Assembly: GCA_903860985.1 (NCBI GenBank)
Contig: CAIOSO010000050.1
Coordinates: forward strand, 1 to 64,000
DNA length: 64,000 bases
Reading direction: 5' to 3'
Origin: an uncultured Flavobacteriales bacterium
GTDB taxonomy: Bacteria > Bacteroidota > Bacteroidia > Flavobacteriales_D > Crocinitomicaceae
Translations under genes and position numbers: made by a program
The notes under the pieces: model-generated
The model's database searches: none
What the model was told of the DNA's origin: nothing
What the model saw: only the letters and a program-made list of their open reading frames with translations
In this document: positions 2,096 to 44,448 of the stretch, piece by piece
Layout: the number at the start of each line of letters is the position of its first letter
Numbering within the stretch: the first letter of the stretch is position 1

Positions 2096-3553
<1,458 letters not shown>

Positions 3554-4136: not shown

Positions 4137-4923
4137 GTTAACTTTCTTGTTAGGTGTCCTTTTTGCTTGCACGAAAAGCGAAGAAGTCAAAAACATCCTT
4201 GTTTTTGGACATGCTGGAATGGGATTGAGTATGGATAATTCCATTTATCACGACAATTCAAAAGAAGCGGTTTCACTTGCCTTGAATTTACCAACGTCCA
4301 ATGGGGTGGAGGTGGATGTGCGTCTAGGAGCGGATGGAACCCTGTGGCTCTATCACGACGAATGGTTGGAAGCGGAAACTAATGGCGAAGGATGCGTTTC
4401 AGACTTGAGTGATCAGGATTTATCTAACATCAACTATCGAACGCTGAAGAAAGAAAAGTTGGTGAAATTAGTCGATGTCTTGAGTTTGCTGCATGAGGAT
4501 CAGCAGTTGTTTGTTGATTTGAAACCTGTCAATTCATGTCTCAATGAACGGGTGGACTTCGAACGCTTGAAAGAAGCTTTTGAGGAACAGTTACAGGGAC
4601 ATGAGAACCAAGTGAAAATCATCTGCTCCTATGAATATTGGCTAAACGAACTGGCGGCTGAATACGAAGTATTGTACTCGACGGATGATGTAGAAGAAGG
4701 AAAGAAAATGATTCAGAAACATCCAGGCATCGTTGGACTAGTCATTCGGAATGCAGTGATTGATGCACAAGATGTTACATGGATCAAACAGCAAAATCAA
4801 ACGGTGTATTTGTACGATATTCGTTCGTTGAAAGGAATTCGACAAGCGTATGCTAAGAATCCAACAGGAATCCTAGCAGATGATCTCAGGAATGCGTTAG
4901 AAGAAAGAGGTTACGCTTTGTAG
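4123..4923 (+). CDS. Glycerophosphodiester phosphodiesterase family lipoprotein
   Basis: Lipobox-like LFAC; FGHAGMG...[10 protein letters not shown]...[29 protein letters not shown]. Confidence 0.75.
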
Positions 4924-5993
4924 AAAGGTAACTTTACTACTTGCGCTTTGACACCTTTTTCACGGATTTCAATGAAGATTTCACTCTCCAATTTGCTGTT
5001 CTCAATTGTTACGTAGCCAAGTCCAATTCCTAATTTCATACTTGGGGACATCGTTCCAGATGTTACTTTTCCGATAACTGTTCCAGCTGCATCCAAGATA
5101 GGATAATCGTGACGAGGAATTCCACGGTCAATCATTTCAAAAGCGACTAATTTACGTGTAACACCTGCTTCTTTTTGTTTCGCAAGGAACTCAGAATCCG
5201 TGAAATCCTTCGTGAATTTCGTGATCCATCCCAATCCTGCTTCCAATGGAGAAGTCGTGTCATCGATATCGTTACCGTATAAACAGAAGCCCATTTCTAA
5301 ACGGAGCGTGTCACGCGCTGCAAGTCCGATAGGTTTGATGCCAAAATCAGCTCCAGCAGCAAAAACTGCGTCCCAAACTTGATTTGCATCTTCATTTTTT
5401 ACATAGATTTCGAATCCACCTGAACCCGTATAACCTGTTGCGGAAATCATGATATTTTCAATTCCAGCGAATGTCCCATGTTGGAACGTGTAATACGTCA
5501 TGTTCGATAAATCGATATCCGTCAAAGATTGCATTGCTTCCGCGGCTTTAGGACCTTGGATTGCCAACAAGCTGTATTGGTCAGAAAGATTTTCCATCTC
5601 CACACCAAGGTCGTTCAGAGAAGAAATCCAATTCCAATCTTTTTCAATGTTCGAAGCATTCACTACAATGAAATACTCTTCCGCATTCACACGGTAGATG
5701 ATTAAGTCGTCTACAATTCCCCCTTTGCCATTTGGCATGCACGAGTACTGTGCTTTGCCATCGAACAACACCGAAGCATCGTTGGAAGCAAACTTTTGTA
5801 TCAGCGCCAAGGCATTTGGACCACGTAAAACAAATTCACCCATGTGAGAAACATCAAAAACACCTACGGCGTTGCGCACGGTTTCGTGTTCAGCATTCAC
5901 ACCTTCGTATTGTACGGGCATGTTGTATCCAGCAAATGGAACCATTTTCGCTCCGAGGTCAATGTGTTTTTGTGTGAGTGCAGTGCTTTTCAT
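4911..5993 (-). CDS. gcvT: Aminomethyltransferase, glycine cleavage T protein
   Basis: [32 protein letters not shown]...[10 protein letters not shown]...[14 protein letters not shown]. Confidence 0.95.
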
Positions 5994-42134: not shown

Positions 42135-42487
42135 ATTGGATATTCGTTTTTATTGGCGGTGGACTCGGGAGCTTGGCGCGCTTTGGCATGAGCAAAGCTT
42201 TACCATACAAACAAGGATTCCCATGGGCAACGTTCTGGAGTAATTTATTGGCGTGTATTGTTTTTGCCTTGGTGCTGTACTTCAGTTCGAAAATCGCCAA
42301 AACAGATTGGCTTCATCCCTTATTACTTGCTGGATTCTGTGGTGGCTTCAGTACATTTAGCACCTTTTCTTACGAGAATTTTCTCTTACTTTCCAACGGA
42401 CAATACAGCATCTTTGCACTCAATGTGCTTGTGTCAATAGTAGCTGGAATCGCTGTTTTTGCTTTGGTGTTGCGTTTAAATCCGTAA
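42131..42487 (+). CDS. crcB: Fluoride efflux channel CrcB/Fluc
   Basis: GGGLGSLARFGMSK; WATFWSNLLAC; GFCGGFSTFSTFSYE. Confidence 0.93.
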   Translation: MNWIFVFIGGGLGSLARFGMSKALPYKQGFPWATFWSNLLACIVFALVLYFSSKIAKTDWLHPLLLAGFCGGFSTFSTFSYENFLLLSNGQYSIFALNVLVSIVAGIAVFALVLRLNP

Positions 42488-43180
42488 AGTCGATAAGCCA
42501 CCGTCGATGCCAATGATTTGACCGGTAACCCAAGAAGCTTTTTCGGAGAGTAAAAATGCGGCGTAATCTGCCATGTCAGCAACTGTTCCCACACGTTTCA
42601 TGGGATGACGCAATCCATTCGCTTCTTTCTTCTGATCGGAATTCAAGAGGTTTTGTGCCAATGGTGTATCCGTAAGTGATGGCGCAATGCAATTCACGCG
42701 AATGCTCGGTGCTAATTCTGCTGCTAGGGATTTGGTGAGTCCTTCCAAGGCTGCTTTTGAAACGGAAACCTGTGTGTGGAAATTCAATCCTTGACTCGCT
42801 GCAATCGAACTAAACAATAAAATGGATGGTGTCACACCAGCTTTTAGTCTTGCCACGTTCCCTTGAATGCATTTGATGGCACCCAACACTTGTAAGTCAA
42901 AATCGTCTTTGAATTGTGCTGGAGAAATGCGAGCGAATGGCTTCAGTGAAATGGCGCCGGGACAATAAACGATTCCGTCTAAACGTTCGGGTAGGAAGGC
43001 AAAGTCCAAGGACTCTGAACGGACATCCAATTGCTGGTAATGGATTCCAGAAGGAAGACCCGCATGTTCTTTCGTGAAGTAGGTTCCAAACACTTGGTGT
43101 CCTTCGGCGTGCAATGTTCGAGCTAGTTCCAGTCCGATTCCGGACGATGCACCAACAATGAAATAATTTTTTGTTTCCAT
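42476..43180 (-). CDS. SDR family oxidoreductase
   Basis: YFIVGASSGIGLELARTLHAEG; STxxxVSKAALEGLTKSLAAELAP; GQIIGIDGG. Confidence 0.9.
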   Translation of the reverse strand: METKNYFIVGASSGIGLELARTLHAEGHQVFGTYFTKEHAGLPSGIHYQQLDVRSESLDFAFLPERLDGIVYCPGAISLKPFARISPAQFKDDFDLQVLGAIKCIQGNVARLKAGVTPSILLFSSIAASQGLNFHTQVSVSKAALEGLTKSLAAELAPSIRVNCIAPSLTDTPLAQNLLNSDQKKEANGLRHPMKRVGTVADMADYAAFLLSEKASWVTGQIIGIDGGLSTLRI

Positions 43181-43299
43181 GAAAGTGTAACAAGTTTCAA
43201 AAGAAATGGTTCTTTTTTACCATGATTTAAATTGGATAATGATCAAAATCTAGGGGCTTGACATCATTTTGTATCCATTCACAGTTGTTTTTATCTCCA

Positions 43300-43625
43300 A
43301 CTTTTTGTCCGATTGTCGGACTTGATCCAAAAAGTTCACAAAAAGATCAATCCCGAAATATCGGGATTCGAATTCTATGTCGGGCCCAATTCTATTTTGA
43401 ATTTCTTTCTTCGAAGTGATAACAACAAACATCCACAAGATCGCTTTCTCGCGCATGAAAAGATGCAACGCAAACCCTCACGACGAAGTTGCGTTAAAAT
43501 TTCTGGCTGTCTGAGCCGAGGAACGAGAGCGAGTTTCAGAAATTTTAGCAACAAGGAAGATGAGGGTCGTTTCATCTTTTAAGCGCTAGACCTTTTTGTT
43601 ACTTTTTGGGGCAATGCCAAAAAGT
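43300..43625. repeat. Nested inverted-repeat intergenic element (~326 bp)
   Basis: Both ends carry ACTTTTTG...CCAAAAAGT hairpins flanking inverted CACAAAAAGATC / GACCTTTTTG. Central palindrome: AAAAGATG(43458)/CATCTTTT(43573), ACCCTCA(43474)/TGAGGGT(43561), GTTGC(43488)/GCAAC(43548), AAAATTTCTG(43496)/CAGAAATTTT(43537). Confidence 0.85.
43349..43368. repeat. Perfect hairpin AATCCCGA-AATA-TCGGGATT inside the element
   Basis: 8-bp perfect stem, 4-nt loop. Confidence 0.85.
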
Positions 43626-43707
43626 AAAACAATAAAAAAAATTTCCCATACTATAACATTTTGACATGGTACATTAATTTAGCTACATTTATCAAAAATT
43701 AAACGAC

Positions 43708-44448
43708 ATGAACTTCTTTAAAAAACACGCAGCAACCATCATGATCACTTTTGCGGTGATCGTAACCGGATACATTTTAGGACATTCCTACCTATCCAAA
43801 GGGAAACCAGATCCTGTGATTAGCGTGACCGGTTTAGGGGAGCAGTCATTTGACTCGGATTTAATCGTTTGGCGTGCGAATTTTTCCCGCAACAACATGG
43901 AATTGAAACAAGCGTATGCGGATTTGAATAATGACGTGAAACGCGTGAAGTCTTACTTGATGTCCAAAGGAATCTCGGAAGATGAAATCGTCTTCGAAGC
44001 AGCCGATATCCAAAAGATGTTCCACACGGAATACGACGGCGATGGAAATGAAACTGGTTCGTACTTTACAGGTTATAATTTGACACAAAGTTTAAAAGTC
44101 CGTTCCAAAAAAGTAGATACTGTGGAGAAAACTTCACGTGAAGTATCGCAGTTAATCGATGCGGGAATTGAGTTGAATTCCAATGCACCAGAATATTACT
44201 ACACGAAGTTGGCAGAGTTGAAAATCAAAATGATTGAAGAAGCAACGAAGGATGCGTACAACCGTGCGCAAAAAATCGCAGAAAACGCAGGTGGTAACCT
44301 TGGTGGACTAAAAACAGCAGACATGGGTGTGTTCCAAATCACGGCAGAAAATTCTTCCGAGGATTACTCGTGGGGTGGAAGTTTTAATACCTCCTCGCGC
44401 CGCAAAACAGCGAACATCACGATGCGTTTAGAGTATAAAATCGACTAA
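43708..44448 (+). CDS. SIMPL domain-containing protein (DUF541)
   Basis: ISVTGLGEQSFDSDLIVWRANFSRNNMELKQAYADLNNDVKRVKSYLMSKGISEDEI; KDAYNRAQKIAENAGGNLGGLK. Confidence 0.88.
   Translation: MNFFKKHAATIMITFAVIVTGYILGHSYLSKGKPDPVISVTGLGEQSFDSDLIVWRANFSRNNMELKQAYADLNNDVKRVKSYLMSKGISEDEIVFEAADIQKMFHTEYDGDGNETGSYFTGYNLTQSLKVRSKKVDTVEKTSREVSQLIDAGIELNSNAPEYYYTKLAELKIKMIEEATKDAYNRAQKIAENAGGNLGGLKTADMGVFQITAENSSEDYSWGGSFNTSSRRKTANITMRLEYKID

Follow-up and report, generated by a model that had tools for sequence, protein, structure and literature searches.

In the window, by which we mean the whole 64,000-nt stretch analysed here, an SDR gene (42476-43180, minus strand) and a SIMPL/DUF541 gene (43708-44448, plus strand) flank a palindromic stretch at 43300-43627. 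The flanking genes are divergent, and so a 3'-untranslated role is impossible for this copy. The initial annotation described a nested palindrome with hairpin-bearing ends, extending over 43300-43625. Every arm that it named is found in the sequence, and the right hairpin reaches 43627. The stretch is a palindrome on several levels, in which the hairpins at the two ends are inverted relative to each other and a long central hairpin lies between them. Its parts are as follows:

43300..43335, left end hairpin ACTTTTTG…CCAAAAAGT, inverted counterpart of the right end hairpin; copies of this module occur in sister genomes
43307-43321, GTCCGA-ttg-TCGGAC, within the loop of the left end hairpin
43337..43348, CACAAAAAGATC, judged from the sequence to be the inverted counterpart of GACCTTTTTG near the right end
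43349..43368, inner hairpin AATCCCGA-AATA-TCGGGATT, absent from some copies and multiplied in the relative G036
43369..43457, middle part, less conserved among copies and shorter here than in sister copies
43458..43580, plus strand, central long hairpin, with 93% of cells paired versus 37-50% when slid; its arms are AAAAGATG / CATCTTTT, CCCTCA / TGAGGG, GTTGC / GCAAC and TAAAATTTCTG / CAGAAATTTTA, and it has an internal loop CGACGAA / AAGGAAGA
43507-43536, tip of the central hairpin
43507..43514, plus strand, 5' side of the tip loop, CTGTCTGA, in the match to covariance model R1 (43496-43548, 62 bits)
43531..43536, plus strand, 3' side of the tip loop, GAGTTT, also from model R1
43599..43627, plus strand, right end hairpin TTACTTTTTGGGGCAATGCCAAAAAGTAA, ~60 nt after the tip, a spacing common to several phyla

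The stems are broken by internal loops, and GATCAA within the segment at 43337..43348 is complementary to TTGATC in the loop of the left hairpin. The pattern of the right end hairpin has its sole match in the window at this position, where 0 were expected. The copy is asymmetric: end hairpins are present on both sides and the tip in the right half only, and the left half is shorter than in sister copies.

The stretch folds far better than shuffled sequence. The z-score is -6.0 for DNA, -5.4 for RNA from the plus strand and -7.0 for RNA from the minus strand, and 0 of 100 dinucleotide shuffles were as good in each case. Two small ORFs overlap the element. Neither has a Pfam match and no open frame is kept among the element copies; thus, the element is taken as non-coding, in agreement with the initial annotation, which saw no credible protein here, and the protein-coding reading is rejected.

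The tip motif and the end hairpin

When genome contigs were scanned for exact matches to CTGTCTGAGC-N(5-25)-GCGAGTTTCAG, 52 stretches were returned. Besides the window's own genus, these come from several species of Thioalkalivibrio and Solimonas, from Marinobacterium, and from one MAG each of Geobacter, Bacteroidales and Arcicella; the tip is also present in Ralstonia and in several families of Bacteroidota. An early impression that similar CTGTCTGAGC..GAGTTTCAG motifs exist in other Bacteroidetes is thus borne out, and extends to Proteobacteria. One pattern match in Rhizobium (L068) has no model match and is regarded as chance. Rfam 15 contains no family for the tip and gave no match with E<=1 over the window element.

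The conserved tip, CTGTYTGA…GAGTTT, is carried on stems of unrelated sequence in different lineages: its flanks are unrelated between groups, yet they pair with each other. Among 15 hand-aligned lineages or stem types, 113 of 120 pairs are formed versus 65.7 on average in 20000 shuffles, with 91 as the highest shuffled value, and alignment A1 (20 sequences) contains 50 double-change cells versus 16.6 expected (0 of 500 shuffles), with the qualification that the shuffle test is inflated by within-genus relatedness and that the hand alignment leans towards structure. Slid controls are free of the relatedness weakness and reach a covariation score of at most 0.23, compared with 0.56. The invariant columns of A1 are CTGT.TGAG and CGAGTTT. 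Compensatory base changes are therefore present across lineages, and they fit a folded single strand of DNA equally well as a structured RNA.

Model R1 was built from the tip alone, without the end hairpin. In a sample of 149 Bacteroidota genomes, nine matched (E<=0.01), and these belong to six families including the window's own; there are six weak matches in genome G113. Weaker tip-model matches are seen in Parabacteroides distasonis (L198, 1711-1751 minus and 2077-2117 plus; L199, 2048-2088 plus). The two in L198 form an inverted pair, and HU and smalltalk-protein genes adjoin the L198 and L199 matches.

Downstream of the tip, mostly at ~60 nt, there is a hairpin of the type G[GT]TACTTTYTTKG…CAARAAAGTA[AC]C. 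It is found in most Thioalkalivibrio copies, the window genus, one Bacteroidales, Arcicella and some Solimonas copies, at a distance of 20 nt in Arcicella and ~76-83 in some others; the Geobacter MAG has the tip alone. Twelve copies newly found with R1 have a perfect AT-rich hairpin 60-84 nt downstream (mostly 60-67), and because the model does not include that hairpin, its presence is an independent check. Two further R1-found copies, L233 and L243, lack a perfect end hairpin. Many Bacteroidota copies have a CTTGAT box upstream of the end hairpin that is complementary to the hairpin loop (ATCAAG), with CTTGAC/GTCAAG and CTTGAA/TTCAAG as variants of the pair, and the complementarity of the letters suggests that box and loop may pair in an alternative fold. 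The end hairpin may be common to several element types. A replicon of Paraburkholderia caribensis (L196, ~2500-3100) contains a palindrome of several hundred bases that is bounded by the same TACTTTTCTTTG…CAAAGAAAAGTA hairpin and has no CTGTYTGA tip.

Copies, complete elements and insertion sites

The window's own genome (G000) has the element in three places: the window copy itself (contig C50), a second copy beside an HU gene (C33:54196-54584), and a diverged third copy at C58:571-627 that was detected with the covariance model. Matches at E<=0.001 occur in 10 further genomes of the genus, and none of those sampled elsewhere in the order matches at the DNA level. Copy number varies widely. 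The genus relative G002 has the element in dozens of places, with copies arranged in tandem arrays whose unit of ~500 bp consists of left hairpin, middle, core, right hairpin and linker. Among the copies, the core and the right hairpin are better conserved than the middle. Copies, relatives and compensatory changes were thus all found, so that the stretch is not the isolated single copy that the initial annotation named as the outcome to speak against it.

Two sites differ in occupancy between relatives. The SDR-SIMPL intergenic region is short and empty of the element in G013, G016 and G023, contains one copy in G000 and G015, and contains an array in G002. At the HU locus, G000, G002 and G036 have the copy and G015 lacks it. 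Empty sites, which the initial annotation had proposed as something to look for, are therefore present; the relatives are too diverged for the exact junctions to be read at either site, and so gain and loss are not separated. At the SDR-SIMPL site of G002 (C4:77900-79750, L087), the array consists of three full units and one core-less unit with a ~500-bp period, which suggests local amplification.

The SDR-SIMPL intergenic region (43181-43707) is 97.5-97.9% identical between G000 and G015, compared with window averages of 84.6% for intergenic and 87.8% for coding DNA. Recombination or constraint may be the cause. The 97.5% identity extends into the intergenic flanks outside the element, and because these flanks are equally conserved, the high identity is not used as evidence of constraint.

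Outside the genus, head-to-head dimers are found. A Ralstonia replicon has two tips in this arrangement, placed between cphA and a flavin reductase gene. One hairpin lies outside each tip, and the palindrome extends further still; the upper stems of the two are unlike in sequence, but each pairs. One Thioalkalivibrio genome contains nine paired elements, again with hairpins outside the tips, along with shorter derivatives. Those with both ends delimited are ~705-800 bp, and their ends have GAACCAGGCCCAGCC in common, although the borders are not perfectly crisp. No ORF-bearing version was seen among the paired ends of this genome. Terminal inverted repeats take the form of the end hairpins in the window, ~47-bp inverted ends in G444, and inverted ends in Solimonas, Ralstonia and Thioalkalivibrio. 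A plasmid search with the window element gave no match; with a Solimonas query, it gave end hairpins only, in three large replicons, among them the Ralstonia replicon that held the full dimer. Target-site duplications, also proposed at the outset as a check, are inconsistent: among the six Thioalkalivibrio elements delimited at both ends, a 3-bp match is seen in one and no match in the other five. Some transposon groups make no target-site duplication.

Interpretation of the element

With moderate confidence, we read the stretch as a degenerate copy of a family of non-coding, non-autonomous, dispersed palindromic elements. Several observations speak for a dispersed element: dispersal and copy-number variation in the genus, the two presence/absence sites, tandem arrays, the tip occurring across phyla, and the end hairpin. 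Each end of a complete element would be a module consisting of a long hairpin capped by the asymmetric CTGTYTGA…GAGTTT loop, a spacer of ~60 nt, and the AT-rich end hairpin, …GTTACTTTTTG…CAAAAAGTAAC…. A complete element, as in Ralstonia and Thioalkalivibrio, would then be two tip modules placed head to head, and the window copy would have kept the tip module in its right half and the end hairpin alone in its left half. It would thus be a degenerate, asymmetric derivative of the complete element, which we consider probable to the same degree as the reading to which it belongs. We infer that the unit spreads by transposition, with an enzyme encoded elsewhere acting in trans; this enzyme would recognize the end module, tip together with end hairpin, in the form of a folded single strand, and its cleavage would leave no target duplication. 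Spread by recombination is also possible. Several points speak against this reading: the screen for a mobilising gene, which covered Y1/RAYT-type transposases only, found none; no ORF was seen between the ends; and in Thioalkalivibrio the borders are not fully crisp and target duplications are not consistent.

The tip and the end hairpin occur at similar spacing on unrelated stems in Bacteroidota and in beta- and gamma-proteobacteria, which suggests one recognizing molecule common to these phyla. We know of no such molecule for the tip. A bolder proposal, which we put forward tentatively and regard as somewhat doubtful, is an unnamed cross-phylum class of mobile palindromic elements whose ends are read as folded single strands, via one tip loop, by a widely distributed protein other than Y1/RAYT.

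It is rather unlikely, but deserves the most attention among the alternatives, that the core is a structured RNA (stand-alone or in untranslated regions) with a tip loop that binds a widely conserved protein, dispersal being secondary. Conserved asymmetric internal loops with G/A-rich sides lie between covarying helices, as such an RNA might have. In both the genus set and the Thioalkalivibrio set, the tip strand gives a more stable consensus structure than its complement does, a difference favored by the choice of pairs in RNAalifold. Where the element lies between two genes of one direction, the tip strand agrees with them in 10 cases and runs against them in 4; this orientation bias is weak, and the rough gene-context calls are unreliable in GC-rich genomes. 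One site, L004, received different classes in two runs. RF01731 (TwoAYGGAY), a candidate CsrA-binding RNA, matches the opposite half of one Solimonas element with a score over its gathering cut-off. Among deviations from strict pairing, G-U is as frequent as A-C in the genus set (22 each), which gives no RNA-strand signature there. Across lineages G-U is slightly ahead of A-C, with 4 versus 0 for the 15 lineages and 13 versus 9 for A1; in Thioalkalivibrio the counts are 117 versus 14, but also 71 versus 8 on the other strand, and the palindromes fold on both strands. Further points against an RNA are the small size of the orientation bias, the lack of a match between the tip and any Rfam family, and the position of the window copy between divergent genes. 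Moreover, in complete elements the two strands each bear the tip, as mirror images, an arrangement that suits the ends of a DNA element better than one RNA.

The same mirror-image ends, defined and with one tip each, look like element ends rather than a binding site and speak against a further alternative, which we consider improbable: a DNA site that binds a host factor (a nucleoid protein, gyrase or the like) or forms a cruciform, and that recombination and horizontal transfer would copy with no transposase of its own. Such a site would agree with the lack of a mobiliser and of a consistent target duplication, and the tandem arrays fit unequal crossing-over. The identity of G000 and G015 in the SDR-SIMPL intergenic region (97.9%, against 84.6% for other intergenic DNA) could be added in its favor, but as described above the high identity reaches the flanks outside the element and so is not specific to it.

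Finally, a REP/REPIN-type element moved by a RAYT (TnpA-REP, HUH Y1) transposase would also appear as dispersed intergenic hairpins, and the own genome has one RAYT-like gene, but this reading fails and is very improbable, because neither tip nor end hairpin occurs at any of 53 Y1_Tnp loci (relatives and carriers, up to 1.5 kb on each side) and three carrier genomes (G003, G055 and G496) have no Y1_Tnp match; a RAYT/IS200 partner is rejected on the same grounds, and a different repeat, GCAGGATTGCAAATCCTGCG, flanks the RAYT-like gene. The latter (G000:C55, L107, 1426-1995) is an HUH Y1 gene whose GCAGGATTGCAAATCCTGCG-type repeats form a REP family of their own within this genome; the gene resembles TnpA-REP subclass 2.6 in its NHIH…YIHNNP motifs (PMC6006769).

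Comparison with known systems

We searched Rfam 15 and the open literature by sequence strings and by concept, and beyond REP papers these gave no description of the tip or of the element family. Within these sources the family is undescribed; the subscription literature lies outside them, and an earlier description may exist. The novelty lies in the scope: a single tip motif and end hairpin common to several phyla. The covariance model and the coordinates make both a tip-binding protein and movement of the element directly testable, and would allow annotation of repeats that are now left blank or called small hypothetical genes.

The non-autonomous dispersed element that we favor is closest to MITEs. 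Like them, it is short, non-coding, multi-copy and mostly intergenic, with terminal inverted repeats and presence/absence between relatives. The MITE-like character given in the initial annotation is supported by the dispersal, the variation in copy number, the empty sites in relatives and the terminal inverted hairpins, but the element falls short of full membership of the class, since the search turned up neither target duplications that are consistent nor a parent transposon. In contrast to MITEs, the element has come to light here with no cognate transposase or full-length parent and no consistent target-site duplication; its ends are hairpins, and it has an internal tip motif that is kept across phyla.

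REP sequences are hairpins of 20-40 nt with a GTAG/GTGG (or CGTC) tag at the foot (Di Nocera 2013, PMC3733652). The element resembles REPs, REPINs and BIMEs in that these are dispersed intergenic palindromes, often in head-to-head pairs, and occur in several phyla (PMC3733652; Quentin 2018, PMC6006769). It differs in measuring hundreds of bases rather than 20-40 per REP unit, and in not lying beside any of the 53 Y1_Tnp genes; the hairpins of the window have no GTAG/GTGG or CGTC tag at the foot. In the narrow REP/RAYT sense, therefore, the comparison with REPs made at the outset does not hold.

In TIRYT elements, a Y1 transposase gene lies between long terminal inverted repeats (Di Nocera 2013, PMC3733652). 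Here, too, the terminal repeats are long and partly self-complementary, and are also dispersed as families without the gene. The difference is that no Y1 gene was found between or beside the ends of our elements; this comparison is one of architecture.

The TwoAYGGAY RNA (RF01731) matches neither the window element nor the tip module itself. The likeness lies in Solimonas variicoloris (L077), where two minus-strand matches above the gathering cut-off (4468-4539 and 4926-4985) are found upstream of the tip. The match at 4926-4985 is in the opposite half of a hairpin-bounded element with its tip at 5142-5176, and that at 4468-4539 is by an adjacent related copy. Some members of TwoAYGGAY may thus be pieces of the tip-bearing class of palindromic repeats.
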